Below, piece by piece: positions 1 through 59,259 of a stretch of 64,000 nucleotides of DNA (its first letter is position 1; every line of letters starts with the position of its first letter). A program made the position numbers and the translations under genes. The notes beneath the pieces are model-generated. The model saw only the letters and a list, made by a program, of their open reading frames with translations. It ran no database searches and was not told the DNA's origin. Source of the DNA: Prorocentrum cordatum (lineage: Eukaryota; Sar; Dinophyceae; Prorocentrales; Prorocentraceae); NCBI GenBank assembly GCA_963575745.1, contig CAUYUJ010014563.1, positions 18,501-82,500 on the forward strand, in the 5' to 3' direction.

Positions 1-95
1 CCCCGATGGAGGCTGCCGCTCGCGACCGTAAACGGTTGGAGAAAATCAAATGTGAACAATCTCTGGCCCTGTCGCACTTCTATAAGGCAACTTCT

Positions 96-461
96 TCATC
101 TTTTGATATGGCAAATGCTGAGCTTGGTTAACCTCCCAACGGGGCACTTTTTGCGAAGAAATTCCTCCGCTGCTTCACCAGGCGTTTGGGCTTCTTGGAA
201 GCCCGTAGTCGGTGCCAAAGTGGGACTGCGGGGCGACTGAGTCGCCAGCGTACTGGCATCACTGCCCGAGGCGGCTGAGCCGCTGGGCGCAGCGACTCCA
301 CTGGAAGCGGCTGGGCCGCTCATTTGCGCGGCGTGGCCCGGGACGGCTATGCCGCTCGAGGCCGAACCACTCCCCGAAACGGCTAAGCCGCTCGGTGCCT
401 TGGTAGGCGCTGCCTTTTGCAGTTCGTCCAGTGCCGCGCGCATATGCTCATCATTTTGCAC
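96..461 (-). CDS. Ala/Ser/Gly-rich ORF dense in hairpins, runs toward left edge
   Basis: The ORF has 121 residues. The start HMRAALDELQKAAPTKAPSG leads into a linker of repeated Ser-Gly-x-Ala units. Each such unit corresponds to one of five hairpin elements packed between 232 and 395. The last 25 residues (TPGEAAEEFLRKKCPVGRLT) look structured. The element continues past the window start. The function is unknown. Confidence 0.4.
   Translation of the reverse strand: MQNDEHMRAALDELQKAAPTKAPSGLAVSGSGSASSGIAVPGHAAQMSGPAASSGVAAPSGSAASGSDASTLATQSPRSPTLAPTTGFQEAQTPGEAAEEFLRKKCPVGRLTKLSICHIKR
232..246. repeat. Hairpin element, TGA loop
   Basis: The arms GGCGAC and GTCGCC pair over 6 bp around the loop TGA. 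The inner stem differs from the family core CGGC/GCCG, but both arms changed together. Confidence 0.65.
271..283. repeat. Hairpin element, core only
   Basis: GCGGC pairs with GCCGC around TGA (5 bp). The outer arm is weak. Confidence 0.6.
306..320. repeat. Hairpin element, 6-bp stem
   Basis: AGCGGC pairs with GCCGCT around the loop TGG. The coding strand reads Ser-Gly-Pro-Ala-Ala here. Confidence 0.65.
339..358. repeat. Hairpin element, weak outer arm
   Basis: The core CGGC-TAT-GCCG is at 344-354. Three outer pairs (one G-T) follow after a 2/1 internal loop. Confidence 0.5.
374..395. repeat. Hairpin element, full architecture
   Basis: The outer arms CCGA/TCGG, internal loop AA opposite C, inner CGGC/GCCG and loop TAA give 8 pairs with the family's asymmetric 2/1 internal loop. 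Confidence 0.75.
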
Positions 462-961
462 GCATTCACTAGCCGATCATAGGCGTTGCCCCTTCGGCGG
501 CATTCCCGGACAGAAAATCCCCCCGCGCGGCAAGAAGTAATTGTCGTCGCTCCAAAGAAAAAAGTCCTCATATGCCATTCCCTGCTTAAGAAAGTCAATA
601 AAAAACCAAACTGGCGAGTAATTAGCAAAGACGCGGGTATGTCGCCTACTGAGGAAGCCCAATTTTGCCAGTACATGACTAGCTCATTAATGGTCGCCTC
701 CCGCTCGGCATACCCGTCAGTTCTTGTCGCCCTTGCTACGTTGCCACTCCGTACGGCTGAGCCGCCGGACGGCTGGCAGAAAAATAACGCGGCCAGCTTG
801 GCGGTCTTGGTCATGTACACTGCACATAATTGGCCCGCACTCGCGCTCACACTTTGCCCACCTTTGGTTATTTTATATTCATGGTGGTTCGAAGCAAAGT
901 GAAAGATGTCTCCTGAGAAGTGCCGAAGCTGTCGGTAAAGGCTCACTCCGGCGAGGATCAT
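383..961 (-). CDS. Post-pol ORF, unknown
   Basis: This 192-residue ORF has a plausible globular stretch (HFSGDIFHFASNHHEYKITKG) before a hairpin at 748-769. After the hairpin the frame degenerates into basic residues. The overlapping frame 477-662 also looks protein-like (FANYSPVWFFIDFLKQGMAY, then EDFFLWSDDNYFLPRGG), so a frameshift probably occurs near 650. No family is recognised. Confidence 0.4.
   Translation of the reverse strand: MILAGVSLYRQLRHFSGDIFHFASNHHEYKITKGGQSVSASAGQLCAVYMTKTAKLAALFFCQPSGGSAVRSGNVARATRTDGYAEREATINELVMYWQNWASSVGDIPASLLITRQFGFLLTFLSREWHMRTFFFGATTITSCRAGGFSVRECRRRGNAYDRLVNACKMMSICARHWTNCKRQRLPRHRAA
748..769. repeat. Hairpin element, full architecture
   Basis: The outer arms are TCCG/CGGA, with internal loop TA opposite C, inner CGGC/GCCG and loop TGA. 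Confidence 0.75.
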
Positions 962-976
962 TATTCTTGGGAAAAG

Positions 977-2875: not shown

Positions 2876-3365
2876 GGTAGAACACGCTCTTTCCCACATA
2901 AAGGTTGAGAATATCATTCGCCTTGACCTGCCACTCGGATGTAGGGGCCTTAGGATCAGTCGCAAAATTCCCCTGCGACCGAAGGTAGTCAAGGACGTTC
3001 CAGGGACCTCGCCCAATGTAGGGCGGGCCACCCGGCTCAGCATCGGCCTCGGGTGGACCCGATTCGGGCGGTCCATCCCCTCCACCACCTCCTGAGGAGG
3101 GATGAGAGGGTGGGCCATTTCCCGAAGAGGAACCACCTGGTCCAGGTGGAGCTCCACCACCGCCGGCTGAGCCGAGGGGTGAGCCACCACCTGTCCCACC
3201 GCCGGCTGCGCCGGGAGGGTCAGCCGGACCCGAGGCTGACTCGGCGCATGATCCGCTGGCAGCCTGCTGGCCGACTCCAGGGTTGCCCAAAGAGGGCTGA
3301 GTGACGGCTGAGGCTACCTGATGGCTTGCCGAAGCGACTGAGTCGTTCGGTGCCTCGTTTGTCAT
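2876..3365 (-). CDS. Post-pol Gly/Pro-rich ORF, cut by repeat insertion
   Basis: The ORF runs to 2844, but coding sense probably stops near 2876. It starts MTNEAPNDSVASASHQ and has a long Gly/Pro/Ser linker holding the hairpin at 3329-3350 and two weaker cores. It ends in a structured-looking piece (WQVKANDILNLYVGKSVFYRCW). The reading is interrupted there by the poly-C and minisatellite block, and the continuation appears on the other side at about 1785 (LAIFHSKAAVDHALSYVEIT). The unknown domain was therefore split by an insertion. Confidence 0.5.
3164..3213. repeat. Two hairpin cores with decayed outer arms
   Basis: CGGC-TGA-GCCG is at 3164-3174 and CGGC-TGC-GCCG at 3203-3213. The outer arms pair poorly, so these may be old copies. 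Confidence 0.5.
3329..3350. repeat. Hairpin element with compensated inner stem
   Basis: The outer arms are CCGA/TCGG, with internal loop AG opposite T, inner CGAC/GTCG and loop TGA. Both sides of the inner stem differ from the family core and still pair. Confidence 0.75.
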
Positions 3366-3967
3366 CCGCGACCTCTTCGGTGGCGACTGCGCTTTGGCCT
3401 CAGGATCGAGGCCGTCCTTGGCAAACCACTCATCCAGGTTTGGCGGCCGATTCCATGGTCGTTGCTCTTTGCGCCAATGTATCGCCTGCTAAGGGGCGGC
3501 ATCAAATAGTTGGTTCTTGCTGTAGTGGTGAGAGCCTCCTCGACAACATGCACTGGCGTGTGATACAAGCCTTTGACCACAGGAAGGGCAAACATTGTTT
3601 CCCAACCATCCCCGGCGGCTGTGCCACGGGGGGGCTCTCGGGGAGAAGGGCCCCATATGTTCAGCCACACCTCGGGGGATCCTTCTGTCCAGTGGTCTAT
3701 CACTGGGACACTCCCAAAATCTCCATATATTGTCTTACACCGTACGGCTGGGCCGACGGTGGGACCAATGACCTCTCCTTTCTCGAGGGTTCGAACAGCG
3801 CGACGTGCTTTCCCTGGTGGGTTCGCATGCAACTTGCAGACCAATCTCGTCTTTTCATCAGGGTACGTCTGAAAGAATGTACCCACGGGGATGTGATCCA
3901 GACTAGGGGAGCACAATCGAAACGGCATGTTGCCTTTCGTTCGAACGTTGTCCAGTGCACTATCCAC
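3362..3967 (-). CDS. Post-pol ORF of unknown function
   Basis: The ORF has 201 residues and overlaps the previous one by a few bases in another frame. It begins MDSALDNVRTKGN and has ordinary globular composition to about residue 130 (VGTFFQTYPDEKTRLVCKLH, IYGDFGSVPVIDHWTEGSPEV), then drifts into Arg/Ser-rich sequence. One hairpin lies at 3738-3761. I cannot assign a family. The shared reading direction and tight spacing argue that it was part of the same long polyprotein. Confidence 0.45.
   Translation of the reverse strand: MDSALDNVRTKGNMPFRLCSPSLDHIPVGTFFQTYPDEKTRLVCKLHANPPGKARRAVRTLEKGEVIGPTVGPAVRCKTIYGDFGSVPVIDHWTEGSPEVWLNIWGPSPREPPRGTAAGDGWETMFALPVVKGLYHTPVHVVEEALTTTARTNYLMPPLSRRYIGAKSNDHGIGRQTWMSGLPRTASILRPKRSRHRRGRG
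3738..3761. repeat. Hairpin element, full architecture
   Basis: The outer arms are CACCG/CGGTG (5 bp), with internal loop TA opposite A, inner CGGC/GCCG and loop TGG. Confidence 0.75.
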
Positions 3968-4790
3968 GGACCCTGCGAGACCTGAGAATACAGACGTTGA
4001 AAATCGTCTGCGATGTGGCGTCCAGGTCAGCCTCTAGCGCGGTCACGACTTGGTCGTTCCGCATATACAATACGTCATGCCTCCACATCGTGAAGCGCCA
4101 ACTCCATCCCCGCTTGTGTCCAAACTTGACGGTCCTGGTGTGATCCAATCTAGACCACTCTCTCTTTTTGTCGGGAAAGCATCGGAATGTTGGTCTCTCT
4201 TTTCTGGAATCAATGTCTCCTGGACCGGAGGTGGCCGCTTTCTTGGCAGGCTGACTGTCCTGGATAGCTGTTTCGGCTGCCCTTTTGCGAGCAACTATCT
4301 CTTCTCCGAGAATTTCTGCACCAGCCTCCATCTCGATGTCTTCATCCATCACGACATCGCTCGGGCTAAATGGTTTAGCCTCGTCCCCAGCCGGCTGAGC
4401 CGGTGGGGGAGCTTCCTCGCTCGGCTGCGCCGGTGGGGTAGCCTTTCGAATTGTATCGGGAGGAGCGTTCTCTTTGGGCTCAGTCCCGGGCTTTCCCGCC
4501 TCAAACAAGTCGGGAAGGAGTTCGTCTATGATATCGTCTGAGCAGATCGAAACAGCGTCCTCCCCCGGCGGCTTACCCACTGGGCCCCCCAACGGTCGAC
4601 ACATGGGTTTGGTCGATGCTCTCTCGGGCGCGCGGGGGCCGCGGCAAGCAAGGTTCGCGCAGTCACCGCAAGGCGACCGCGCGATCCGAGGGGGGGCCGG
4701 CCGCAGGGCAGCCCGCGCAAGCTCTAGAGACGAAACGGCAGCGGCGCAAACGTGATCTGAGGAAAGGATAAGACGACGACGAGACGACAC
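3960..4790 (-). CDS. Post-pol ORF, acidic linker plus W-rich domain
   Basis: This 276-residue ORF is downstream of the pol domains. Residues about 80-200 are an acidic Pro/Ala/Glu-rich linker with hairpins at 4385-4408 and 4422-4432. Residues about 200-265 are better structured in appearance (FRCFPDKKREWSRLDHTRTV, then KRGWSWRFTMWRHDVLYM). I do not recognise the family. It sits after the element's polymerase, where most copia elements have only an LTR, so it is either an extra C-terminal part of the polyprotein or a second gene. The first 60 residues are probably not native. Confidence 0.5.
   Translation of the reverse strand: MSSRRRLILSSDHVCAAAVSSLELARAALRPAPPRIARSPCGDCANLACRGPRAPERASTKPMCRPLGGPVGKPPGEDAVSICSDDIIDELLPDLFEAGKPGTEPKENAPPDTIRKATPPAQPSEEAPPPAQPAGDEAKPFSPSDVVMDEDIEMEAGAEILGEEIVARKRAAETAIQDSQPAKKAATSGPGDIDSRKERPTFRCFPDKKREWSRLDHTRTVKFGHKRGWSWRFTMWRHDVLYMRNDQVVTALEADLDATSQTIFNVCILRSRRVRG
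4385..4408. repeat. Hairpin element, full architecture
   Basis: The outer arms are CCCCA/TGGGG (5 bp), with internal loop GC opposite G, inner CGGC/GCCG and loop TGA. The coding strand reads Pro-Ala-Gln-Pro-Ala. Confidence 0.75.
4422..4432. repeat. Hairpin core
   Basis: CGGC-TGC-GCCG lies 27 bases after the previous element. The outer arms are not convincing. Confidence 0.5.
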
Positions 4791-5698
4791 AACTCTCTCT
4801 CTCTCTCTCTCTCTGCGGCTCGAGCAAGAACAATATGGACTTGTCTGGCAAAAGCATCCGTGTAATCTTCTGCCATCTTACACTCGCGTCCTCTAGCCTC
4901 AACATGCCCGTGCGCGCCGTCACATCTACGCTCAAGTCCCTTTGCAACATCGGAGGAGGTAGAAGCTATCGTCCAGGGCTTTTTCATGAAATTACCCTTG
5001 CTATCCTTCAGTCCGTACGCACATCCATGCAACGCCGTCTTGACGAACTCGAACTCTCTCCTAAATTCTTTCGCCTGAAGGTCCCTCCAGTAGTTACACT
5101 GGGTCGGCCATTCGATGCAAACGATGCCCCCCGTTTCGTGCACAGCACGGGCAATCTCACGGAAATTCCAAAACAGGTATCTGAAGTCTGTCCTGATACC
5201 ACGAAGCCTACGCATCGCTTTATGGTTCCCGGTACAACAAAAAAAACATGTGCTTCGTTTGCACATTGCGAGGGGGAACCTCCCGTGCAGGGCATAGAGC
5301 CCCACAACGTAATGCGTTTTCCTTTGAACATTTTTAATATCATTCAAAGCCAACCTACGTCCCTCATCATTCCTCATGTCTTCGGTCTCGGTGTATCGAA
5401 TCACTTTACACGAGTTGTCAATGAAATTATTCTGATTTGCTATCCTGCTCTGAGGGCCACAACAATATTCTACCAAGAGTCTTTCCCCGGTCCACTGTGG
5501 CCGGGGCGCAATCTTCTCGGATCCAGAACTCTGTATATCCAGTCCATATGCTAGGACAATAGTCACCATCGCTGGAATCGCCATTCGAAATATGTTCAAA
5601 TTGGTGATGGTATTTGTTATCTTCATCGCGCCAATTATCTGCACGGTCAACCGTCCAACCCTGTTGGGTGTTAATGGCATAAGTACGACGCCTATCAT
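4724..5698 (-). CDS. Methyltransferase-like module of the retroelement
   Basis: This 324-residue ORF lies directly after RNase H. Residues 76-86 read VEYCCGPQSRI, resembling a nucleotide-binding first motif of class I methyltransferases. Residues 98-108 (KVIRYTETEDM) could be the acidic second strand, and 190-204 read GGIVCIEWPTQCNYW. A Pro-Cys motif (SMPCTGGSPSQ) sits in another frame at about 5275-5300, bounded by two compensating frameshifts. Further on come KPWTIAST and CDGAHGH. The order resembles a cytosine-5 methyltransferase-like Rossmann fold, but the residues are not canonical. The last ~35 residues read through a (CT) microsatellite and are probably not native. The function is inference; the module looks disrupted in this copy. 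Confidence 0.5.
   Translation of the reverse strand: MIGVVLMPLTPNRVGRLTVQIIGAMKITNTITNLNIFRMAIPAMVTIVLAYGLDIQSSGSEKIAPRPQWTGERLLVEYCCGPQSRIANQNNFIDNSCKVIRYTETEDMRNDEGRRLALNDIKNVQRKTHYVVGLYALHGRFPLAMCKRSTCFFCCTGNHKAMRRLRGIRTDFRYLFWNFREIARAVHETGGIVCIEWPTQCNYWRDLQAKEFRREFEFVKTALHGCAYGLKDSKGNFMKKPWTIASTSSDVAKGLERRCDGAHGHVEARGRECKMAEDYTDAFARQVHIVLARAAERERERELCRLVVVLSFPQITFAPLPFRL
4791..4815. repeat. (CT)n microsatellite
   Basis: A CT run of about 12 units lies between the methyltransferase-like module and the next ORF. In the minus reading it produces an Arg-Glu run, which suggests that the ORF end there is read-through rather than real protein. Confidence 0.85.
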
Positions 5699-7064
5699 CT
5701 AACCTTTCCGGGTCGATGGGACAGTCACTGGTTACTGGCATAAACGTAACAAGTCTCGGAATGAAATGCCAGCGCTTCAAATTCTGTCCTTGTTGTGTCC
5801 ACGTATCCTTTCTGTCCAGGAAACTGGCAACAGCAGCAGGAGGAAGATGAGGAAGGAGAAGGTTGTGGCCAGGTATTTCTTCCATGTCCCTGGCTGGCTC
5901 ATTACTCGAATATCCTTCGCATAATTCTTTTGGCAAGATTGATGTATCTGACTCAGTTCCGCTGTCGGTCATGTCAAACATTGCTTTCATCTCACTATTG
6001 AAGCTTTTCTTAATTATTTCCTCCATCGCTCTGGTTTTCTCGGAGTTTCTGCTGAAACCTCCTTCGGTCATTGTAAGAGTAATTGCACCTGCTTCCACGG
6101 CTTGGCCGGGCGCATTCGCAACCGCAGCTTTGCTGGGAGCGCGTGCCACCGCGGCTTTGCCGGGGGCGGCCTCAGGCGCCGCTGGGACATTTATTGGTTT
6201 TGGTGTATGCACAACGGGCTTGCCCTTATTGGGGCGCTTCTTCTTTTTGTTCATCTTTTTGCTGGGTACAACAGCTCCTCTCCGCAAGGCCGAACTAGGA
6301 CCTAAGCGGGGCTTCAGAAGCCCCCCGGGTTTCAGGGGAAGTCCGTCTGAAAACATCGACTCTAAAAAGTCCTGGTACCGCTTGGCGGCCCAGAATTTGG
6401 GAGTTACATTGTCGACGAGGCAACAAACTTTAACCCAAGCCAAAGGGTCTGTGAACCTCTTCGCCCCAATGTCTGCAGCTTCATTTTGGGCCCTTTCATA
6501 CTGGAGCACAACAATACCTCGAGAGAATTGTTCGGACACAGCAGCAGCATCAATCCGATGTGTTCTCGGTCGGTCCATGAGCTTCATTGACCCGCCCGCT
6601 TTGATGACTCTACACACTGCCTGGTTATTCTCTAAGAACAAGCATCGTACCCGTCTGTCAAGCAGTATTTCCCATGGCGGTAGCGCTGCAAGCAGCTCTT
6701 TTCGCAAAGCAAGGTCAGCAGCCACAATCTCTGCCTCAAGTGTGCTGTGGGAAACGCAAGTCTGTCGTTGCGATCCCATGGACTGTCCAGCTCTAGTGCA
6801 TGGGCCCCATATTGCTTGAAAACTAGCACTCGTGCTCCGATGCGTTCGAATGTCACTTGCTAGGTCTGCGTCAGAGTATTGCTTCAACAAGACATCCTCC
6901 ATTTTGTCACCTACCCACGAAGACATACGGTAGTGAGAGGTACATTTTAGATAACAGATGAGGCGGAAAAACATCCATGTCTTGTTGCTCTGGCCATTTG
7001 GTGATACAACTGGCTGTTTGACACACCGCACGGGGCAAGTCACATCTAGCCATTCTTGCACCAT
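5427..7064 (-). CDS. Copia-type RNase H with long C-terminal tail
   Basis: The ORF has 545 residues. Residues about 60-215 are the RNase H domain: YSDADLASD (63-71, catalytic Asp region), STLEAEIVAADLALRKE (Glu at 110), LENNQAV (144-150), RTHRIDA and EAADIGAKRF. The position after LE in LENNQ is usually Asp in this family (LEDNQ), so one catalytic residue appears changed to Asn. The domain would remove RNA from the RNA-DNA hybrid. Residues 225-330 are a Lys/Pro/Ala-rich tail containing three Ala-Pro-rich repeats of about 8-9 residues. The remainder is an acidic region that runs into the methyltransferase-like module. Confidence 0.82.
   Translation of the reverse strand: MVQEWLDVTCPVRCVKQPVVSPNGQSNKTWMFFRLICYLKCTSHYRMSSWVGDKMEDVLLKQYSDADLASDIRTHRSTSASFQAIWGPCTRAGQSMGSQRQTCVSHSTLEAEIVAADLALRKELLAALPPWEILLDRRVRCLFLENNQAVCRVIKAGGSMKLMDRPRTHRIDAAAVSEQFSRGIVVLQYERAQNEAADIGAKRFTDPLAWVKVCCLVDNVTPKFWAAKRYQDFLESMFSDGLPLKPGGLLKPRLGPSSALRRGAVVPSKKMNKKKKRPNKGKPVVHTPKPINVPAAPEAAPGKAAVARAPSKAAVANAPGQAVEAGAITLTMTEGGFSRNSEKTRAMEEIIKKSFNSEMKAMFDMTDSGTESDTSILPKELCEGYSSNEPARDMEEIPGHNLLLPHLPPAAVASFLDRKDTWTQQGQNLKRWHFIPRLVTFMPVTSDCPIDPERLDDRRRTYAINTQQGWTVDRADNWRDEDNKYHHQFEHISNGDSSDGDYCPSIWTGYTEFWIREDCAPATVDRGKTLGRILLWPSEQDSKSE
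6098..6162. repeat. Two hairpin cores in an Ala-Pro repeat
   Basis: CGGC-TTG-GCCG is at 6098-6108 and CGGC-TTT-GCCG at 6152-6162. They coincide with a short Ala-Pro peptide repeat in the RNase H tail, so here the core may be a by-product of that repeat. Confidence 0.4.
6308..6324. repeat. Unrelated hairpin in RNase H tail
   Basis: GGGGCTT pairs with AAGCCCC around CAG. The loop and core differ from the main family. Confidence 0.5.
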
Positions 7065-7464
7065 TGCGTATCTTCATCGAGACTTTCGCCGCAATGGGCT
7101 GAAGCACTCCCGACTGCGTCGGTGGCTCTGGGTCAATGGGGCTCGCCGCTGCGGCATCAAGGCCAAGAACTTCTGCTTTCTGATCATGAGGCCCCGCGTC
7201 AACTTTGACTTGTAACGCTGATGCTATGGCCTCCTCTGCCGGAGAGTAAACTTCGCCTCTGGGGCCACCCTGGCCATCCTCGAGGTCAATTAGTTCTGGG
7301 CCACATGGTGTACCTGCAGCGGGACAAGTAGCTGGATCAGTGTCCGTTAGTTGAGCATATAACGTAACACAGGAATCAAAGAATTCTGTCATGTCATACT
7401 CTATGACCACGATGCCAACGCGAACAACACTGATGATATCGCAGTTGAAGGGGGACATGAACAC
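6907..7464 (-). CDS. RT-RNase H connection segment
   Basis: This 185-residue ORF links the RT and RNase H regions. The first half is an acidic linker. The second half (VLQPIAAKVSMKIRNGARMARCDLPRAVCQTASCITKW) resembles the connection segment before copia RNase H, where the polymerase end reads as a series of small-residue helices. It runs into the next ORF with a frameshift near 7.0 kb: the same peptide context (PEQQDMDVF, then RLICYLKCTSHYRMSSW) continues there. There are no catalytic residues of its own. Confidence 0.6.
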   Translation of the reverse strand: MFMSPFNCDIISVVRVGIVVIEYDMTEFFDSCVTLYAQLTDTDPATCPAAGTPCGPELIDLEDGQGGPRGEVYSPAEEAIASALQVKVDAGPHDQKAEVLGLDAAAASPIDPEPPTQSGVLQPIAAKVSMKIRNGARMARCDLPRAVCQTASCITKWPEQQDMDVFPPHLLSKMYLSLPYVFVGR

Positions 7465-8407: not shown

Positions 8408-9312
8408 GTGCCAATGTCTCGTAGTCTATCCCATTCTTTTCTCAAGGCAGCCTGGGCATCTTCATTCGCTTTGGCCTCGTCTTTTGAGACAGAGCGTGCG
8501 ACAGCGGCATCAATCTTAGCGCGTTGCCAGTCGTTGGGAAGTTGGAAGGGTTCGTCGACAACTGAGATAAGATCAGTAAAAGGGTTGTAAGAATACTGCA
8601 AATAAAATCTTTCTTTTTCGCGATGACTGAGTACTGAAGCCGAGCTACTCTGCAACGGCATTCGAGGCACGCTTCGCCGCGACGCGGCGGCCGCCGGACA
8701 CAAGGTCAGGCTTGCCCCTTGTGTGTCCTCAGATTCATCGTCGGATAACGGGCCCCTGCCGGCTGGGCCGGAGGGAACCCCGTCACGTGCTATGGTGCCA
8801 CCGCACCATGTCTGCTTCCACCAAATGTCCTCGTCGTCCGAAAGATGTTCGTCGGAATCACGCTCCTCAGAGGACTCGGTAGCCACAGCTGCGGCTTGGC
8901 CGCCCTGTGCCGTCAAACGACGAAGTCTCTCAGCCACCCTAGGCGCGGCTAGCCTTGCCTCAGGATACGCCGCAAGTGGCTGGGCCACTGCGGGTTCGGG
9001 CGGAGTTGGTGGATCATCCACATCCAAGCCAATATCACGCAGGAGGCCAAGACAAGGGCCAGGATCTTCTATACCGAAAAATATTCTCTTTTCTGCCTTG
9101 CATTGTTCCACAGCCTGTCGGCGCTGGGCTTGATTCACATTGAACCATCGTCCAGGATGGATCCCAGGATTGGTGGATACAGGTAGCTTTTTCAACCGCT
9201 GGGCACCGTATTTCGGGTCTGGGTCAGTGACCCACGCGCGAGTTATAGGCACGTAGTCTGGATCATAATACAGAACAACTCGAATGCTACAGGTCTTTCT
9301 TCGACCCGTCAA
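8266..9312 (-). CDS. Integrase-RT linker and start of reverse transcriptase
   Basis: This 348-residue ORF is mostly a disordered acidic and Ala-rich linker holding three hairpins (8754-8775, 8884-8909, 8970-8993). The last third carries the start of the copia RT domain: residues ending LRKEWDRLRDIGTWKE correspond to the family's W...E...L...GTW segment. The frame then breaks and the RT continues in the ORF 7394-8407, overlapping by about 140 bases. The break falls between the fingers entry segment and motif 1, so the RT is split by a frameshift. Confidence 0.7.
   Translation of the reverse strand: MTGRRKTCSIRVVLYYDPDYVPITRAWVTDPDPKYGAQRLKKLPVSTNPGIHPGRWFNVNQAQRRQAVEQCKAEKRIFFGIEDPGPCLGLLRDIGLDVDDPPTPPEPAVAQPLAAYPEARLAAPRVAERLRRLTAQGGQAAAVATESSEERDSDEHLSDDEDIWWKQTWCGGTIARDGVPSGPAGRGPLSDDESEDTQGASLTLCPAAAASRRSVPRMPLQSSSASVLSHREKERFYLQYSYNPFTDLISVVDEPFQLPNDWQRAKIDAAVARSVSKDEAKANEDAQAALRKEWDRLRDIGTWKEDGVTDRRRTLAGCLRSLSKRTRSYHWDIEIANTKVGSLLMVRA
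8754..8775. repeat. Hairpin element, full architecture
   Basis: The outer arms are CCCT/AGGG, with internal loop GC opposite G, inner CGGC/GCCG and loop TGG. Confidence 0.7.
8884..8909. repeat. Hairpin element, full architecture
   Basis: The outer arms CACAG/CTGTG (5 bp), a CT/C internal loop, one G-C pair, inner CGGC/GCCG and loop TTG lie in the pre-RT linker. Confidence 0.7.
8970..8993. repeat. Hairpin element with compensated inner stem
   Basis: The outer arms are CCGCA/TGCGG (5 bp), with internal loop AG opposite C, inner TGGC/GCCA and loop TGG. The changed first base of the inner stem is matched on the other arm. Confidence 0.75.
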
Positions 9313-10557
9313 TGGAAGCTTCTGCGTTAACTCTTCTTGTCAGACCGGCAACGATACGCCTATCTTCGAAGTATTCCATCGTATCTAGGTTTTGGGTTGT
9401 TCGAGCAAGAAGTCGCCCTTTCCTGGGGACCTTCTCACGCGGCTTAGCCGCTGAGAAGTTTGATTGTCTACCCAAACGATGCTCAATTTGCGCGAGTCCC
9501 AATTTCTGGTTCTTATCTGCTGGATGGGAATCTCGCTGTGGACCCCTGCCGTCAACTACCATAGGCTCGTCGCCCACGCACAACCCACCAGGGCCTTCAT
9601 CTTCTAATTCGGCCTCCGAGTCGAAGTGTGGGGCGCCCTCGCCTCCTTGGGAAGGCGGTGGCATGATAACAGCAGGATCATTTGCATCAAATAAGTTGTC
9701 CGATCGTATCCCGGTTGCTGGCTGTGGTCCGTCTGGGGCGGCCGCAGCTTCTCCGGCTGGAGGGATCGTGACGGAGCGCACTTCTGTCACTGCCTTCTCG
9801 TGCGCTTTTCTTAAAGGAAACTGGGGAGATTGACCATCAGCAGTGCCATCCAAAATGTCGCTGTATACCTGGTCTGACTTCTCAATGGTGGGTCGTCTAC
9901 CCTCGGGTGTGCGCCCTGGTTCCCTGTTAAGTCCATCCAGCTGTCTTGACGGCGCGACATAACTATCTGGTCCAACCAATCCCCCCGCTTTGTGCACATA
10001 CCCCAAGTATATCCCTGGAATCATCGTTGCACCGGTCTTGGCGGTCCTGAATCTAGATTCAGGCGGAGGCACATTGCGCGCGAGGGACCCGAAGGGAAGG
10101 AGCGGAGTCCTAGTATTATAGCAAAGACAGAAGTATCGGACGGCGTAAGTCCAATATGGTGGTGGAAGACCGGCCTGCATGAGCAAGGCTCTAGTCCCAA
10201 TCTGTACCACGCCATTTGCACGTTCAGCAATGGCGTTATGTTTCTTATTTCCTGGGATGGTAGGACCATGTGCAATCTTGAGCTCGTAACATGCCCTTGC
10301 AAGCTCTCGTGCGCCATCTGTATAACAGTATTATAACTTCTCCTCCGGGGCCTTAAGGTTTACCAAAACATGCAAACGTGAACCGCAGACTTGTCGTGCG
10401 CACCCTGAGCGGCAAGGAAGTCCGCGGCTCGGTCGCGAAAAGTCACGCACGCGGTCTCATCGTGGAGCCCCCGCGAGAGTTCATCCATCGCAAACCAGTG
10501 ATCCATCGTCGTCAGGCGTCCAAGCGAAGTGGGGTTAGCGCCAGGGCGGGGAACCAT
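9287..10557 (-). pseudogene. Copia-type integrase core, with in-frame stop
   Basis: Two ORFs (10360-10557 and 9287-10210) and the sequence between them encode a retroviral-type integrase. The first catalytic Asp is in TMDHW, the second in CYTDGARE and the Glu in HNAIAERANG, 30 residues after the second Asp. The residues that follow (TRALLMQAGLPPPYW) match the helix usually found after the catalytic Glu. A TAA at 10331-10333 lies in frame eight codons upstream of the second Asp codon, and a frameshift joins the first part. The C-terminal half is a long Pro/Ser/Glu-rich linker containing the hairpin at 9431-9458. The enzyme would insert cDNA into host DNA; this copy is inactive as read. Confidence 0.8.
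9431..9458. repeat. Hairpin element, 7-bp outer arm
   Basis: The outer arms are CTTCTCA/TGAGAAG, with internal loop CG opposite C, inner CGGC/GCCG and loop TTA. It lies in the integrase C-terminal linker. Confidence 0.8.
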
Positions 10558-11135
10558 CAGCCTTTAATTTTGCGCCTTGCGCTGCTGCTTTCTGATAGCT
10601 TTGGCCCAATTGCATACTGAGCAAATGGGTTCTTGGGAGTATGAGTTAGAAGGTGCGGCAAGGAGGCCGCGGCCTTTTTGAGCCGCTCGGCAAGGGATTC
10701 CGACACCTCAACCTCCGCATCGTCTGGGTTCATCTCTGGCGGTGCGTCGACGTCCACTAAGTCGACACCGTCAGCGTCTCCAACTTCACCCTCCTCGGGC
10801 CCGGGGGCCGCGTCGCGCGCGCTGGAATCCAACCCTCGATCCATGTCATAGGGGAGGTATCCTGAGACCGCGTACCAATAAGGGCACTTATATGCGGCTG
10901 CGCAGGCCTCGGCTTTGCCGGGCTGCTCGTCGTTCTGTCCAACGGCTTGACCGTGGCAGGGCAAAGTTAGGAGACTCTTAGAGGCAGCAATGCCGGTCGG
11001 CGTCCGATTCCAACCGCTGTCGCTAGCCTTTCGAGGCGAATAATAAAAAAATGATAGTATCCGCAGAGTCCAATGAAGACGGAGAAACGGGCGCGATCTC
11101 AGTCGGCCGTCCGTCAACGTCGCTGCGGGTACCAA
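10557..11135 (-). pseudogene. Protease-integrase linker and broken integrase zinc domain
   Basis: This 192-residue ORF has an acidic middle (GEVGDADGVDLVDVDAPPEM). It ends in HLLTHTPKNPF, which is the His-x3-His half of the integrase HHCC zinc-binding domain. The expected two cysteines are not in this frame but appear immediately downstream in the +1 frame near 10.61-10.62 kb (reading C-S-V-C). A one-base frameshift has therefore split the domain. The first ~60 residues are probably shadow of the protease frame. The domain would help integrase bind element ends; here it is broken. Confidence 0.65.
10902..10926. repeat. Hairpin element, core with partial arm
   Basis: CGGC-TTT-GCCG is at 10910-10920. 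The outer arms GCAG/CTGC can pair across a larger internal loop. Confidence 0.5.
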
Positions 11136-12039
11136 TCAACTCATGTGTATGCAGGTCTGTGGTTACGCGAGTCTGGACAGCATGGGGCGGAGGGCCTCCC
11201 GCAGATTCCACATTGCCCAGGAATGCCTTGGCGCCTGGCGTCACGCAACACCACCGCTCGGGGGGCTCGCCCTCCCCAGCGGCAACCGCGCGCATCCACT
11301 GACAGAGCGCCTCTTTGCCTGAAAGGGTCAAGTATGGTATCTTGCCCTCAACGATCAGGTCCACTCTTTGACCGTTGGGCAGCAATAGGTAGGGTCTTCG
11401 GCCGGCTGGCCAGAAGGAACTAAAACCGCGATCCATGCAACGCTCTCCTACCGAAATCACGCACGGAGTCTCCGGCATGACCAAAGCGTTAAAACTACCA
11501 CCCTTAAATTTAGGGCATGCGATGCGAACTGAACCAAGGGCCTTTGACTCTCCCCCAGCAGTATTCAGAGTGATCGATTGCGGAAGCTTTCGAATCCATG
11601 TCATTGCACCTGCACTTCTAATATATCTCTCCGCTATGAGGCTATACCCACACCCTGTATCCATAATAAAGCTCAACGCTCCGAAATACGCAGCGTCCTT
11701 GTCTGTGCATCCCGCAGCGGCTGTGCCGCGTGGGCCCTCGCCCCCCTCCTCGGTCCTCAACCAGAGGTGCCAGACTTCATCTTGCAGGTCTGACGCCCTG
11801 ATCAAGGCCTCCGCAGCAGACGCCCTCGACTGGGTAGACATCTGTCGGCGCATCTCTCCTGGGAACTTCCAGTCTTTGGCACTTGAGAGCAATTCTTTCA
11901 AATCGTGGCGACGCGCCTTCCTCCAAGTGATGGCGGGCTCCTCAGTAGAGGGGTGAAATCGGACACGGAGCGTGCTCCGACCCTTCATCTGAGATCGGAT
12001 GCAACTCTTACTAGTGGGGGCCCCCCAGTTCTTCTGCAT
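11023..12039 (-). CDS. Retropepsin-like aspartic protease
   Basis: The ORF has 338 residues. The active-site signature DTG lies at residues 127-129 in FIMDTGCGYSLIA, preceded by hydrophobic residues as in retropepsins. About 60-80 residues later come VISVGERC and the segment LLLPNGQRVDL, which match the later strand and flap region of retroelement proteases. Such enzymes cut the gag-pol polyprotein after dimerising. The first ~110 residues are a linker containing the hairpin at 11711-11734. After residue ~290 the ORF drifts into a different frame from the integrase linker. The catalytic motif is intact. Confidence 0.8.
   Translation of the reverse strand: MQKNWGAPTSKSCIRSQMKGRSTLRVRFHPSTEEPAITWRKARRHDLKELLSSAKDWKFPGEMRRQMSTQSRASAAEALIRASDLQDEVWHLWLRTEEGGEGPRGTAAAGCTDKDAAYFGALSFIMDTGCGYSLIAERYIRSAGAMTWIRKLPQSITLNTAGGESKALGSVRIACPKFKGGSFNALVMPETPCVISVGERCMDRGFSSFWPAGRRPYLLLPNGQRVDLIVEGKIPYLTLSGKEALCQWMRAVAAGEGEPPERWCCVTPGAKAFLGNVESAGGPPPHAVQTRVTTDLHTHELIGTRSDVDGRPTEIAPVSPSSLDSADTIIFLLFASKG
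11711..11734. repeat. Hairpin element, full architecture
   Basis: The outer arms are CCCGC/GTGGG (one G-T), with internal loop AG opposite C, inner CGGC/GCCG and loop TGT. Confidence 0.75.
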
Positions 12040-12360
12040 AGCGCCCCGAGAAAGAGGGCGCAGGAAATTCGCAAGGATACGGACAATATTCTCGACCTGT
12101 TCCCTGCACTCGCGGTGAAAACCTCCACCGGAGGGATTCCCGTATACCCCTTCCGCTGGTATCTCTAGAGGCCTTCAAAAACTTAGGGCTGGCCTGTTTT
12201 GCCCGGGGAAGCCCCGAATCAACGGGGCGGGGCACGCGATGGCACCCAAGCTGACTTGGTCAGTGGATCTCCTCCGGCCCCCTCGCTTTCGGCTTGACCG
12301 ACGCGGACTTCGCCGCATCCGTCGAACAAGGAAGACATGGACACAATTATATCGGTCAGT

Positions 12361-12396
12361 GCTCCTGCACTGGCGGCTGAGCCGCCAGTGCGGAGC
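12361..12396. repeat. Hairpin element, 16-bp stem
   Basis: An 11-bp perfect stem (12367-12377 with 12381-12391) around the loop TGA is extended by 5 more pairs (12361-12365 with 12392-12396) past one bulged T. It lies between the finger ORF and the protease ORF. Confidence 0.85.
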
Positions 12397-12401
12397 CAAT
12401 G

Positions 12402-12707: not shown

Positions 12708-12711
12708 TCCT

Positions 12712-13548
12712 CTATGCTCTTGATAGCGTCCATCCTCTGGTCCGCGACAGTTCTTGGAGTCTCGCGAATAAGCGTAACATGGTAGTTTGCTCTCTTTTCC
12801 ACGCGATTGATTGGATTGACTCCGATTTCTCTGCTATGCTCCGTTCCCGCGCCCCCCCCGTAGGGGTTTGTGGGCGGCTCTGCCCCTTTCGGCCTCGGCC
12901 TTCGGGCTTGTCAGATCCCCCTCTGGGATTCTTGTTCTGGGCTGGAGCAGCATTCGACGTAGTTCCCGCAACAGGCTGAGCCGGCGCGGCAGCCTTGGGC
13001 TTCTTATGGTTAAAAGAGCAACCCTGGCCTGCGTACGGGCAGGCCTGGCCCTTACGCACAGACTTGCACGTTGTCTCGCCCTTAGTCAATCCGCTCTTCA
13101 TGACATCTGTGGCTTTACCTAGTCGAGCTGTTACCTCTGCCGGAGCGGCTTTACCGCTGGCATTTCGACGATTGTCATTGTTGTTACTCCCACCTCCGCC
13201 CAATCGGGCCTGCCGAGCACGTTGATTCAGAGTACTCTCATGCACATTGATGTTCCATTCTTCCTTGTCGCGCAACATCAACGAATCAATTTCACTCATA
13301 AGCCACTCAGAGGAACTCACTCCTGTTCCCAATCTACCTTTGGACATGCCATAAATCTGACAAACAAAGGATAACTTCGTAGGCTTCCTACACTGCTGAA
13401 TGAAGCGTGCATGAATCGAGGCTCGCATTTCGTCCGATGGAGGTCGAGCCCCATAGCTGTTGGTAAACATATGTCCATTCATTGTATGTTTGTAACATCG
13501 GGAATGTCCATCAGATCGACCTTTTGATTGTTTCCAACTTGCCTCCAT
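12712..13548 (-). CDS. Gag-like ORF with CCCH zinc finger
   Basis: The ORF has 278 residues. The N-terminal half resembles a capsid-type helical segment (MRASIHARFIQQCRKPTKLS, then repeated charged helices). Around residues 160-185 lies a CCCH-type finger: C-x8-C-x6-C-x3-H, ending CSFNH. CCCH fingers bind single-stranded RNA and here take the place of the CCHC knuckle of many gag proteins. A Lys/Pro/Ala-rich tail follows. A degenerate relative of the hairpin family lies near 12974. The next ORF carries a second finger, so the two were probably one protein separated by a frameshift near 12.71 kb. Confidence 0.7.
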   Translation of the reverse strand: MEASWKQSKGRSDGHSRCYKHTMNGHMFTNSYGARPPSDEMRASIHARFIQQCRKPTKLSFVCQIYGMSKGRLGTGVSSSEWLMSEIDSLMLRDKEEWNINVHESTLNQRARQARLGGGGSNNNDNRRNASGKAAPAEVTARLGKATDVMKSGLTKGETTCKSVRKGQACPYAGQGCSFNHKKPKAAAPAQPVAGTTSNAAPAQNKNPRGGSDKPEGRGRKGQSRPQTPTGGARERSIAEKSESIQSIAWKREQTTMLRLFARLQELSRTRGWTLSRA

Positions 13549-14513
13549 TGATCCAGGGGGGTGCTCTCATCTAGACCTCCCGGATCATTTGGCCCTCCTG
13601 GGCCTGGAGGGCCGCCGCCGCCGCCTCCTCCGCCTGGGGGCCCAGGTCCCCCCGGACTCCCGGGAGGTGGCTTGTCTGGCGGATCGCGAAAAGTACCAGT
13701 TAGTGCCGATAGAGTATCAGTGCTCGACGCGATGCTACTGTCGTCGCCAACCTTATTCTTCCCCGCCCCGCCCGGCGGCTGTGCCGCTGGCGCATGATCC
13801 TCGTCGCTGTCGAACGGCTGAGCCGTTGGCGGTCTCGCAGGTCCGTCCTTAGAGAACGGATGATAATTGACATAATTCTTTCCTTCAATCTCACCTGTGA
13901 GCTTTAATCTGATTGGTATACCATGCTCGGAGGTGCCAAGCTTTGCCGGACCTTCAATTGCAGGGCCAGGGACAATATAATGTGGCTTCATGGCAGGTCT
14001 TGCGGGCGTATCCTGTGAGAGTAGAGGTAACTCAAACGAACTCGACTTTATGATTTTGCCCTGTTCTGTTTCCGCATGCGGGAAGGGCTTAGTGATGACA
14101 GCTTGAAGCTTCATCATGTCTCTTCCTGATGCAGCTGCAGGTGCTAGAGTCTGTTCCTCAGTTTGCTCCTTCGTCCCCTGTGCACTGCATTCATCAAGGA
14201 GCTTTTGTTGCAGGGCACGAAAGTCACTGTCGGCGCTGTGTTTTCTCCACTGCTCGTCCCACTTCTCCTGTTCAGCTGGCAATCTCTTTATTTGAATGCA
14301 CTTAGAACATCTTTCCGTATTCGCGTCAAAGTGGCCGTTGCAGCCCGGCTTTCCACAAGTGGCGCAGTCCCCGACTTTCTGGTTCAAACAGACCGAACAT
14401 TGTTCCTCATTAGCCCCTTTCGCGGGTTGCGGCTGGGGCACAGCCCTCACTTTCAGCACAGGCGGCATCGCGCTTTCCACGGTTATCAAATCCAATTGTT
14501 CTCTTGAGGACAA
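13479..14513 (-). CDS. Second Cys-rich gag-like ORF
   Basis: This 344-residue ORF is in the same strand series. Near residues 35-75 it has a compact Cys/His cluster (CSVCLNQK, CATCGKPGCNGH, then CSKC) that looks like a zinc-binding fold of RING-like spacing. The middle is unremarkable. The last third is a Gly/Pro-rich low-complexity linker that contains hairpin elements at 13772-13790 and 13813-13827. It feeds into the CCCH-finger ORF with a frameshift near 13.5 kb. It is probably part of the structural (gag-like) region; a role in nucleic-acid binding is inference. Confidence 0.6.
   Translation of the reverse strand: MSSREQLDLITVESAMPPVLKVRAVPQPQPAKGANEEQCSVCLNQKVGDCATCGKPGCNGHFDANTERCSKCIQIKRLPAEQEKWDEQWRKHSADSDFRALQQKLLDECSAQGTKEQTEEQTLAPAAASGRDMMKLQAVITKPFPHAETEQGKIIKSSSFELPLLSQDTPARPAMKPHYIVPGPAIEGPAKLGTSEHGIPIRLKLTGEIEGKNYVNYHPFSKDGPARPPTAQPFDSDEDHAPAAQPPGGAGKNKVGDDSSIASSTDTLSALTGTFRDPPDKPPPGSPGGPGPPGGGGGGGGPPGPGGPNDPGGLDESTPLDQWRQVGNNQKVDLMDIPDVTNIQ
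13772..13790. repeat. Hairpin element, 8-bp stem
   Basis: CCGGCGGC pairs with GCCGCTGG (one G-T) around the loop TGT. Confidence 0.7.
13813..13827. repeat. Hairpin element, 6-bp stem
   Basis: AACGGC pairs with GCCGTT around TGA, 22 bases after the previous element. Confidence 0.7.
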
Positions 14514-15448
14514 TGCGCCGGACGGCTGGGCCGCCGGCGCATTGTCGATGGGCGCGCGACGTCGGTTAGTTGCACTTGCTGAAGGGATGATCTAGCACTA
14601 TCATGCAATTTGAAGTATTTTCTTTGTTTCTTTGTCACATCGACTCTCGTCGCAGCTGCAAGATGGGCATTGGATACTTCCAGCCTGGCAATTTTGAGTT
14701 GCTCTTGAAGCTCCTGCTTCTCTTGTTCTGCCCTGGCTGTAGCAATTTTCCCCCCTTCTACTCCTGCCGCTGCAACGGCGGCGGAAACGGTCTTGGCATC
14801 AACAGATTGACGAATCGCCGTTACGACGGCCTGTCGTTCGGAAGCCATCATATCGGCGTGGCGGTTCTTGGCTTCTTCCTCCGCTTGCCGCTTAACGACC
14901 GCGGTTTGATGGCACACTTGTTCCGCCAACTCCTGTTCCCGCTTTCTGGCGGCCGTGGCCAGGGCAAGTCTCTCAGCCTCGAACGTCTTCCGAACGTCCT
15001 CAATGGTTGCGGTCATTTCTTCTCGATCAAGTCGGGCCTTCTCGGCCCTCTGCGCTTCGCGCGCCAGGAACTCCTGCTGAGTCTTAGCTTCGACAAATCT
15101 AGCCTGATCCTGCATGGCTTGCATGAGAAGAAATGTGCAACTGTGCTCACTCATGGGAAGACAACCTATACACAACCATTGATTGCTACATTTGGGACAC
15201 ACATCCGAGCAATTCTTACCTACTGGACGTCTACAAGCTCCATATGGCTTGCGGGCTTTCCCCGGGCATCTGCTCTCCGCCTGTGGCGCGCAGTCGGGGC
15301 CCCAGTTCCAGCATGCATCAAGCATGGATATGGTGCTGTTGCTCCCTGAAGCAAACCGGGCTCCTGATCTTGGCATTTTGGGCCCCCCCCCCCTACTCGA
15401 GGCGTTCGATCTAGGACGTGCGCGCGCACATTCTGGCGGTTTTGGCAC
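14486..15448 (-). CDS. Cys-rich plus coiled-coil gag-like ORF
   Basis: The ORF has 320 residues. Residues about 45-105 contain a cysteine-rich block (pairs such as CxxC in DVCPKCSNQW and CIGC, then a His) that could bind zinc. Residues about 110-260 form a long charged Ala/Glu/Lys/Arg/Gln-rich stretch with heptad character, probably a coiled coil. Such coiled coils suit self-assembly of a gag-type particle protein. It overlaps the following ORF slightly and lies directly upstream of the next Cys-rich ORF. The first ~35 residues are probably a shadow of the preceding frame. No exact family match is claimed. Confidence 0.6.
   Translation of the reverse strand: MPKPPECARARPRSNASSRGGGPKMPRSGARFASGSNSTISMLDACWNWGPDCAPQAESRCPGKARKPYGACRRPVGKNCSDVCPKCSNQWLCIGCLPMSEHSCTFLLMQAMQDQARFVEAKTQQEFLAREAQRAEKARLDREEMTATIEDVRKTFEAERLALATAARKREQELAEQVCHQTAVVKRQAEEEAKNRHADMMASERQAVVTAIRQSVDAKTVSAAVAAAGVEGGKIATARAEQEKQELQEQLKIARLEVSNAHLAAATRVDVTKKQRKYFKLHDSARSSLQQVQLTDVARPSTMRRRPSRPAHCPQENNWI
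14509..14546. repeat. Hairpin element, 17-bp stem
   Basis: Positions 14509-14526 pair with 14530-14546 around the loop TGG, with one bulged A at 14522. This is the longest member of the family. It lies at the junction of two gag-like ORFs. Confidence 0.85.
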
Positions 15449-16536
15449 CTCTCGAAATCCCTTTCATCCTGTCTTACTAGCTCAGTATACGAAGCTGGAT
15501 GTTCAACCGTTTCTTCATCCTCAACCACAGCCGGTATCGAGGGTTGCCAATCGCCCGAGGCAACGGCAGAACGATAGAATCCTTCCTGAAGCGGTGAATC
15601 GTTAAAATCATAATCCTCGTTCCTCTGCTTCTTGAGTTGAGGTGCAGGAGTGCGTCCTGTGGGCTCCCTATCGTGCTTCGCCTGAGATTGATGTTCGATA
15701 TCAGCCTTGACCGCCTGAGGCGTCAGGTCACTTGTATCAACATCTGAACCATCTGGGGGCCACCTCTCGCCTTGGGCGGGGAGGTCTGCACCCAGTATCG
15801 AGGACAACTCTCGGCTCAAAGAAACTCCTTTGTTGGCGTACTCCAAATCTTCCTCCATGGAGTTTATCTCATGCTCTCTATCAAGTGGCTCGTCACTATC
15901 TTGACCGAACTGTCCGTTCAATGCTATTGGGATGGGAAGAGTTCCACTCGTGCCTCCCCATCCGTCTGGGACGCCGGGGTACGCGCCTGTGGACTCGCGA
16001 GCTTCTCCCGACCCACTGACTTGGCCAGCGGCCGGCACGATTGTCTGTGTAGCAATCGGAGTAGGACTTATCGTCTCCGATGGTTCGGCGATCAAAGACG
16101 AGAAGGCTCCTCGTCTGGATCTTGCTGTTATGCCATTCCGTCTCTGCGGGTCTGGGGTTTGTTCGCGATCACCGATCGGAGCTCGAGAGGGAGAATCATC
16201 TTCCGACAAATGAACAACCTCTCCACTACTTCTACCCCGAGAGACCCGAGAGGCAATACTAGAAGAGGGAAGGCGGCCCTGCCCCGGGCCGCTCTCCTGT
16301 AGTTCATGTCCGTCGCGTTGTACACCTTGCTGTTCAGCGTTTCGCGAAGCGACGGACATTTGATCTGTCTCATCGTAGCTCATACCCGTGGCGACTATGT
16401 CGCGGGTTTCGGCTGATAACCAATCTTTCCTCTGAGAATCGGGGTAAGATGACAAAGGAAGAGGGCCACTGTTCACTCTGCTCAGTGGAAAAGGGTACGG
16501 GATGAGACATCGATAAGACAAGTAACCTGTAAGCAA
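15220..16536 (-). CDS. Retroelement leader ORF, disordered
   Basis: This 438-residue ORF is the most upstream part of the copia-like element. It is rich in Ser, Pro, Gly, Asp and Glu, with acidic patches and a short basic stretch (LKKQRNEDYD), and looks intrinsically disordered. I recognise no enzyme motif. The true start is uncertain: a Met in MSYDETDQM near residue 53 is an alternative to the first start codon. Its 3' end overlaps the next ORF (14486-15448) in another frame. The last 50 residues therefore probably belong to a shadow frame, with the real protein passing into the neighbour by a frameshift near 15.4 kb. It is likely the N-terminal segment of the gag-like polyprotein. Confidence 0.55.
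   Translation of the reverse strand: MLTGYLSYRCLIPYPFPLSRVNSGPLPLSSYPDSQRKDWLSAETRDIVATGMSYDETDQMSVASRNAEQQGVQRDGHELQESGPGQGRLPSSSIASRVSRGRSSGEVVHLSEDDSPSRAPIGDREQTPDPQRRNGITARSRRGAFSSLIAEPSETISPTPIATQTIVPAAGQVSGSGEARESTGAYPGVPDGWGGTSGTLPIPIALNGQFGQDSDEPLDREHEINSMEEDLEYANKGVSLSRELSSILGADLPAQGERWPPDGSDVDTSDLTPQAVKADIEHQSQAKHDREPTGRTPAPQLKKQRNEDYDFNDSPLQEGFYRSAVASGDWQPSIPAVVEDEETVEHPASYTELVRQDERDFERCQNRQNVRAHVLDRTPRVGGGGPKCQDQEPGLLQGATAPYPCLMHAGTGAPTARHRRRADARGKPASHMELVDVQ
15705..15727. repeat. Hairpin element, variant inner stem
   Basis: The inner stem CGCC/GGCG surrounds TGA. Five outer pairs (CCTTGA with TCAGG) carry single bulges. Confidence 0.55.
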
Positions 16537-59255: not shown

Positions 59256-59259
59256 AGCG

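Follow-up and report, generated by a model that had tools for sequence, protein, structure and literature searches.

Rickettsia palindromic elements are palindromes located inside open reading frames (ORFs), and the GC clusters and double-hairpin elements of fungal mitochondria are short hairpin families present in many copies. We have carried out an analysis of 64,000 nt from the dinoflagellate Prorocentrum cordatum (GCA_963575745.1, contig CAUYUJ010014563.1, positions 18,501-82,500 of the forward strand; hereafter the window, to which all coordinates refer), one end of which is occupied by what its sequence identifies as a frameshifted retroelement of the Ty1/copia type. The coding DNA of this element contains a family of 35 hairpins, described here on the coding (minus) strand, which have a common architecture, face one way, change their arms in match, fall mainly into two reading frames and are confined within the window to this one element; a single family seeded through retroelement coding DNA had already been proposed in a first-pass annotation. 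Unlike the fungal mitochondrial GC clusters, they reside in the coding DNA of a nuclear element and obey fixed loop and bulge rules. The reading that we tentatively favour, as quite possible, is that they constitute a cis-acting recognition element repeated along the sense RNA of the retroelement, perhaps a packaging signal bound by Gag.

According to the passage on them in PMC6649704, the arms of Rickettsia palindromic elements reportedly become less identical with time, whereas those of the window's hairpins change together, in one orientation and in one element. The same account describes hairpins with matched arms kept in the mitochondrial coding DNA of Nematomorpha, where the arms are long and perfect (PMC6649704), while those of the window are short and bulged and have one core in common. 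PARCEL repeats, as summarised in PMC2996958, are likewise coding repeats with dyad symmetry, associated with mobile elements in some taxa, but they are a 25-residue protein motif; in the window the hairpins lie in two frames, encode differing peptides and have only nucleic-acid structure in common, and the lack of a common peptide sets them apart from PARCEL as there described. For single-stranded RNA viruses, the part of PMC6281560 dealing with dispersed packaging signals proposes that the sites have only part of a motif in common, the MS2 signal being characterised there by a loop xYA and a bulged A on the 5' side. The window resembles this type of system in having many stem-loops with a common recognition feature along coding RNA, and differs from it in the single core sequence, the triloop, the 3'-side bulge of free identity and the retroelement carrier. 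Several stem-loops of one motif are indeed found along the genome of the element, as 35 sites in its DNA and presumably in its RNA, and dispersed packaging signals would be, by analogy, the best parallel.

The exact core CGGCTNNGCCG (CGGC-TNN-GCCG in plus-strand letters) occurs 23 times in the window, always within 272-14533, and is absent from the 47.6 kb that follow the first 16.4 kb, as had been noticed earlier. At 12 additional T-loop sites, 11 of which lie in 1-16 kb and all 12 up to 16.4 kb, the inner arms are changed in match (in plus-strand letters CGAC/GTCG five times, CGCC/GGCG three times, and CAGC/GCTG, CCGC/GCGG, TGGC/GCCA and CGTC/GACG once each), giving a total of 35 sites spanning 226-16409. 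The first-pass annotation had recognised a real family in the same region, but undercounted it (22 exact and four matched sites) and placed it in a slightly smaller zone (232-15727). T-loop sites in 1-16 kb comprise 23 exact cores, 11 matched double changes, nine unmatched double changes (7+2) and eight single changes, and those in 16-64 kb comprise none, seven (with 16392, a site of the zone, among them), 50 and 10, respectively. As matched changes represent only 12 of the 144 possible double changes, 11 matched against nine unmatched in the first 16 kb is a large excess.

We have also shuffled synonymous codons in 18 ORF stretches, in 300 runs preserving peptides and codon usage (the stretch 977-1903, which has no hairpin site inside, included its terminal stop codon). 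Exact cores dropped to 0.71 ± 0.84, with a maximum of 4, against 23 counted (22 distinct sites, 12374 lying in none of the stretches and 14523 in two), and exact cores plus matched variants to 1.8 ± 1.4 against 36 counted (34 distinct sites, 14523 and 15278 each lying in two); this test, which the first-pass annotation had named, thus leaves far fewer hairpins than observed. Together with the matched and unmatched counts, the shuffles rule out chance and codon usage as the source of the cores. The explanation that low-complexity Ala/Pro/Gln/Gly linkers with GC-rich codons produce the cores by accident draws on the Ala/Pro/Gly-rich peptides around the sites, but is contradicted by the shuffles, by the occurrence of the cores in two frames with differing peptides and by the covariation of the outer arms described below; it is already disfavoured and appears to us very improbable. 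One exact core, 7923, is probably a chance match within a conserved reverse transcriptase (RT) motif, since the outer stem is absent and relatives encode WRSC at this place.

The hairpin comprises a 5-bp outer stem, a single bulged base on the 3' side, a 4-bp inner stem and a triloop NNA. The internal loop of two bases opposite one that had been proposed for it is the same structure with the first outer pair unformed, and is better described by the single bulge and the 5-bp stem. In a column test that assumes no structure, the flank columns of 34 sites (without 7923) were compared, in 484 pairs, with permuted columns. The column pairs 1-2, 2-3, 3-4, 4-5 and 5-6, which make up a 5-bp stem with a one-base 3' offset, take five of the top six z-scores; the off-diagonal pair 22-12 ranks fourth. 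Over the 35 sites, 110 of 175 outer-stem cells are Watson-Crick against a permuted mean of 62.0 (standard deviation 5.3; 0/5000 permutations), and the corresponding values are 85/130 against 46.8 when one site per cluster is taken, 53/80 against 30.4 for exact cores only, one per cluster, and 36/60 against 20.1 for variant cores only. In the 23 exact cores the outer arms form 86 pairs against 46 ± 7 in permutations (0/2000), mainly at the +1 offset. The outer arms therefore vary in sequence from site to site yet still pair, and in an alignment of 34 sites (with 7923 and without 16392) both sides have changed in 9 of 10 pairs, the matching of the inner pairs being selected by design and that of the outer pairs not. 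The joint change of the two inner arms noted in the first-pass annotation is in this way borne out by the 12 matched variants and extends to the outer arms.

The loop and the bulge combine constant and free positions. Loop base 3 is A in 35/35 sites: although A was part of the site definition, exact cores with another first plus-strand loop letter (CGGC[ACG]NNGCCG) number zero in 1-16 kb, in line with the earlier statement that the plus-strand loop always starts with T, and two are found elsewhere (36357 and 52342), both with loop G. Loop base 2 is C in 22 sites, A in nine, T in four and G in none, and both loop base 1 (T12, C11, A8, G4) and the bulged base (C13, T11, G8, A3) are free. T-loop variants altered at the closing C-G pair were sought in 1-16 kb and none was found; inner pair 3 is the most variable, being changed in 9/35 sites. 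The presence of constant bases beside free ones suggests base-specific recognition at the loop end and recognition of the position of the bulge.

Since the arms are symmetric, orientation was judged from loop and bulge. Among 41 sites with matched arms and any loop in 1-16409, 23 fit solely the orientation given above by their loop, 12 fit both, two solely the other and four neither; the 12 ambiguous sites include nine exact cores, and the six other-or-neither sites have variant cores. The 3'-bulge diagonal contains 65 of 115 pairs in the 23 loop-oriented sites, against 40 on the mirror diagonal, and 45/60 against 16/60 in the 12 ambiguous ones. The hairpins all face one way along the element. 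Every one of 34 sites examined lies inside a stop-free stretch of at least 90 residues, and a bypass of the hairpins by ribosomes is for this reason unneeded. Two frames dominate, one encoding AQP-type and the other G-x-A-type peptides, sites 7923 and 12374 being in the third frame only and sites 14523, 15278 and 15963 having a second, overlapping ORF in the third frame. The same structure across differing peptides points to the nucleic acid.

A covariance model, R1, was built from 34 seeds and searched over the window without filters, yielding 81 matches at an expectation value (E) up to 10. As expected by construction, it recovers all 34 seeds on the coding strand. Its additional coding-strand matches in the zone are 3608 (20.7 bits), 12965 (15.5), 9722 (14.2), 16384 (14.0), 12244 (13.6), 16009 (12.6) and four weaker ones, and its plus-strand matches there are lower-scoring mirror images (up to 18.5 bits) or low-scoring (up to 14.6). 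Outside the zone the best scores are 15.0 (43336) and 14.4 (63159), and among the additions only 3608 clearly exceeds the background by score alone; 16384, despite its 14.0 bits, is counted as a site because its arms are matched. In 1-17000 no Rfam model was matched up to an E of 1.

Sibling proteins allow five sites to be compared, a small number. At 7601 the window encodes SAAQPSE and the sibling P0005, of equal length at this site, SASQTTE, in which A to S corresponds to G to T (for a TCN serine) and P to T to C to A: the implied changes affect both sides of inner pair 3 and would be compensatory. At the same site P0001, in another frame, has VVRRPSRLSHT where the window has VTRRLSRPSHT; this is compatible with CGGC-CNA-GCCG plus two outer substitutions, both able to form G-U pairs on the coding strand. 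In P0123 the APAAQPPG of site 13776 is replaced by MTATKSPG, with T for A (G to A) and S for P (C to T, for a TCN serine); the implied change is again one of inner pair 3 and gives the CGAC/GTCG form present elsewhere in the window. The residues of P0005 are unchanged at 7111. At 13815 P0122 has PPAAK, where its sequence ends, and P0123 lacks exactly 13 residues, i.e. 39 nt, which is how far cores 13776 and 13815 lie apart. The siblings encode a similar peptide at 7923, with no full hairpin pairing. Five sites thus evidence two implied compensations, one unchanged hairpin, one unit gained or lost and one site without a full hairpin; peptides conserved without pairing arms, which the first-pass annotation had regarded as fatal to its claim, were encountered only at the last of these, the likely chance match.

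The unit-sized difference at 13815 bears on the possibility that tiny mobile or duplicating palindromes, comparable to Rickettsia palindromic elements or mitochondrial GC clusters, are spreading inside the element, in which case the structure would serve spreading and not the element. Rows of sites at spacings of 36-38, 39, 30 and 27 nt and a slight excess of similar flanks (15 site pairs against 5.4 ± 2.4 expected) go in the same direction as this difference of one hairpin period. However, the sites have a single orientation, their outer arms covary without a common sequence, P0005 has the same length as the window at 7601, a unit-sized difference was seen only once, and no fixed unit of the Rickettsia type extends past the core, the flanks displaying only a C-rich/G-rich bias and this slight similarity. 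We consider this explanation rather doubtful, and in the simple form suggested by the first-pass annotation it is not supported.

Matched arms could also arise without functional selection, by copying of one arm into the other through template switching during reverse transcription or through correction of quasi-palindromes, a mechanism also discussed for the coding palindromes of Nematomorpha in the pertinent section of PMC6649704. In the first 16 kb matched doubles exceed singles among the T-loop sites (11 against 8), G-U intermediates are not in clear excess, and two sites, 12374 and 14523, are long near-perfect palindromes, all of which would be in agreement with arm copying; yet many arms are imperfect, and copying leaves unexplained why the core is shared, why the loop A and the closing C-G pair are constant and why the bulge sits at one position on one side. 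Template switching, which had been put forward earlier, is thus insufficient alone and is retained as an unlikely rival. Of lower probability still, in fact quite improbable, is action of the sites at the level of DNA, as a hairpin in single-stranded cDNA or as a target bound by a protein of the host or of the element, or else a part in the silencing of the element by its host. The wobble pairs, which have no strand preference (12 G-U against 12 A-C among the 175 outer-stem cells, coding strand), would be compatible with it, whereas the one-sided bulge and the covariation suit a folded single strand and nothing was found that indicates a DNA-binding partner.

A number of observations weigh against a recognition element in the sense RNA. 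The equal frequency of G-U and A-C cells means that wobble pairs do not settle which strand is functional, and the carrier is frameshifted, so that any selection would be past or would have acted on its source copies. Sibling comparisons are made with relatives from a protein database, DNA changes being deduced through the genetic code with serine codons ambiguous, and the putative hairpin-binding protein is proposed by analogy. The flank similarity, with at least 16 of 30 identical bases in each of the 15 pairs, suggests that some of the sites descend from a common source, and the palindromes at 12374 and 14523 have the appearance of copied arms. No core site is present between 772 and 3155, where covariance-model matches reach at most 14.6 bits, and the idea that hairpins avoid conserved domains was dropped, as the RT core block (7664-8386) has one site, 7923, against 1.6 expected at mean density. 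AQP-type peptides are not enriched in 122 relative proteins, most of which cover the RT domain. The sole RT relative found in genome and viral contigs, L121, a 3.6-kb contig whose copia-type RT is 47% identical, has no exact core in these 3.6 kb; its best R1 match (15.7 bits, E 0.027), slightly above the best background score of the window, lies on the strand that does not encode the RT, and has a core of another type. L121 is filed under a Chitinophagia metagenome-assembled genome and is probably eukaryotic contamination. A scan of viral contigs for two nearby cores returned at least 120 stretches, whose loci were ranked by core count: of eight inspected, seven are tandem or coding repeats and none resembles the hairpin family of the window, the eighth, locus L011, having four cores that are scattered and differently flanked.

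The minus strand of 1-16.6 kb is a row of ORFs in which the frame shifts from one to the next, and the element is apparently decayed (Table 1). The protein of ORF 7394-8425 has 516 relatives, 120 of which are listed; an alignment of 44 sequences, made up of the RT piece of the window and 43 relatives from those 120, contains 35 that match RVT_2 (PF07727). For the piece in the window itself, Pfam gives no match even at E 10, which fits decay, and the RT assignment is based on the RVT_2 matches of the relatives. The RT profile gave no match to solved structures, and a further protein search with 8266-9339 gave none either. The order Gag, protease, integrase, RT and RNase H along the minus strand, with the protease below cut-off and the integrase identified by eye, agrees with the Ty1/copia order. 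Long terminal repeats were not recognised in 1-24 kb and the 3' end of the element may lie beyond the start of the window; from strand and hairpins, the ORFs at 0.2-5 kb would belong to the same RNA as the rest. A second copy in 17-64 kb gave no blastn match and one 34-residue protein match (E 7e-4) near 35.4 kb. At 7404-7567 (minus strand), some 150 nt have no counterpart in P0005 between the residues REPK and VIEYD, and represent a small insertion, an intron or decay. A C-rich/G-rich simple-repeat block with inverted arms around the repeated motif GGTTCGAACC occupies 1803-2867, within the core-free gap, and may have been inserted into the element at a later time.

Table 1. Hairpins and ORFs of the retroelement (nt positions in the window; R1, covariance model).
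Feature	Position	Strand	Basis
Hairpin, CGAC/GTCG; first in a row of five spaced 36-38 nt	226..251	-	matched variant, R1 20.2 bits
Hairpin, exact core 272	264..289	-	core, R1
Hairpin, exact core 308	300..325	-	core, R1
Hairpin, exact core 344	336..361	-	core, R1
Hairpin, exact core 380	372..397	-	core, R1
Hairpin, exact core 754	746..771	-	core, R1
Hairpin, exact core 3164	3156..3181	-	core, R1
Hairpin, exact core 3203	3195..3220	-	core, R1
Hairpin, CGAC/GTCG	3327..3352	-	matched variant, R1
Additional hairpin; one-sided change is a G-U pair on the coding strand	3608..3633	-	R1 20.7 bits, not in seed
Hairpin, exact core 3745	3737..3762	-	core, R1
Hairpin, CGAC/GTCG	4038..4063	-	matched variant, R1
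Hairpin, exact core 4392; top R1 score	4384..4409	-	core, R1 29 bits
Hairpin, exact core 4422	4414..4439	-	core, R1
Hairpin, exact core 6098; third unit of 27-nt coding repeat	6090..6115	-	core, R1
Hairpin, CAGC/GCTG; matched change within 27-nt coding repeat	6117..6142	-	matched variant, R1
Hairpin, exact core 6152	6144..6169	-	core, R1
Hairpin, CCGC/GCGG	6370..6395	-	matched variant, R1
Hairpin, CGAC/GTCG (core 7111); P0005 residues identical up to its end	7103..7128	-	matched variant, R1
Hairpin, exact core 7601; P0005 and P0001 imply structure-keeping changes	7593..7618	-	core, siblings
Core 7923, no outer stem, conserved RT motif, probably chance	7915..7940	-	core, R1 13.7 bits
Hairpin, exact core 8760	8752..8777	-	core, R1
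Hairpin, exact core 8892	8884..8909	-	core, R1
Hairpin, TGGC/GCCA	8969..8994	-	matched variant, R1
Hairpin, exact core 9440	9432..9457	-	core, R1
Hairpin, exact core 10910	10902..10927	-	core, R1
Hairpin, exact core 11718	11710..11735	-	core, R1
Hairpin, exact core 12374; long near-perfect palindrome without bulge	12366..12391	-	core
Degenerate hairpin, barely above background	12965..12990	-	R1 15.5 bits (best outside zone 15.0)
Hairpin, exact core 13776; P0123 implies CGAC/GTCG	13768..13793	-	core, sibling
Hairpin, exact core 13815; missing from P0123, gap of 13 residues	13807..13832	-	core, sibling
Hairpin, exact core 14523; 13-bp outer stem	14515..14540	-	core, R1
Hairpin, CGCC/GGCG (core 15278)	15270..15295	-	matched variant, R1
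Hairpin, CGCC/GGCG	15704..15729	-	matched variant, R1
Hairpin, CGCC/GGCG	15760..15785	-	matched variant, R1
Hairpin, CGTC/GACG (core 15963)	15955..15980	-	matched variant, R1
Hairpin, CGAC/GTCG (core 16392); ends just before ATG at 16383, most 5' ORF	16384..16409	-	matched arms, R1 14.0 bits, not in seed
ORF, copia-type RT	7394..8425	-	protein relatives with RVT_2
ORF, RNase H region and 27-nt hairpin repeat	5427..7073	-	by eye and via relatives
ORF, integrase-like region	9287..10330	-	by eye, without Pfam support
ORF, aspartyl-protease-like region	11023..12174	-	PF13650, E 0.042, below cut-off
Gag-side ORF, CCCH-like zinc finger	12712..13566	-	PF25586, E 0.014, below cut-off
Gag-side ORF, three hairpins; siblings P0122, P0123	13479..14591	-	ORF, sibling proteins
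Most 5' ORF of the element	15220..16641	-	ORF list

Other features were observed in the remainder of the window. A sequence that we take to be the dinoflagellate spliced leader is matched at 19/21 positions at 63042-63062 (minus strand), the best of three mononucleotide shuffles reaching at most 15/21, and at 17/21 at 24825 (minus strand), the former match being in support of a dinoflagellate host; a shorter search with 15 bases is less clear, with five matches of up to three mismatches against 2.0 expected. These two matches are possible relics of retroposed trans-spliced mRNAs. In an ORF at 20604-21521 (minus strand), C-5 cytosine DNA methylase (PF00145) is matched below threshold (E 0.00023, 21.1 bits against a cut-off of 22), a GTGTGT-type repeat of about 2.9 kb (45814-48714) lies inside a minus-strand ORF of 1099 residues, and 58845-59258 consists of tandem units of about 134 bp (units of 53 and 81 bp were scored as well) with 90% matches.

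Under the reading as a recognition element in the sense RNA, each hairpin would present a stem of about 9 bp with one 3'-side bulge and, above it, four pairs below an NNA triloop closed by the constant C-G pair. A protein, most likely the element's own Gag with its CCCH-like finger, would read the loop end and the position of the bulge, and, for packaging or the assembly of particles, many weak sites may act jointly in selecting or condensing the element RNA. Local tandem duplication may give rise to new sites, the fold being then maintained by selection. Action as RNA, a protein ligand, Gag as this ligand and a role in packaging are all proposed by analogy, and the more specific proposal that the roughly 35 hairpins form a distributed address label, whose loop and bulge the Gag of the same element reads, packaging thereby the RNAs that carry many copies, is in our view doubtful, though conceivable.

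Each ingredient of this locus is already known, and it is their combination, one fixed hairpin occurring some 35 times in the coding DNA of a copia-type element, that is new to us; in agreement with the first-pass annotation, a literature search returned no description of such hairpins in dinoflagellate retroelements. As the motif is plain, is present in about 35 copies per molecule and covaries within a single sequence, the idea of dispersed packaging signals becomes directly testable. If the arms were made by copying, template switching would be clearly documented in a natural retroelement; if the hairpins are indeed an address label, they would be the retrotransposon equivalent of what has been proposed for RNA viruses as dispersed packaging signals.

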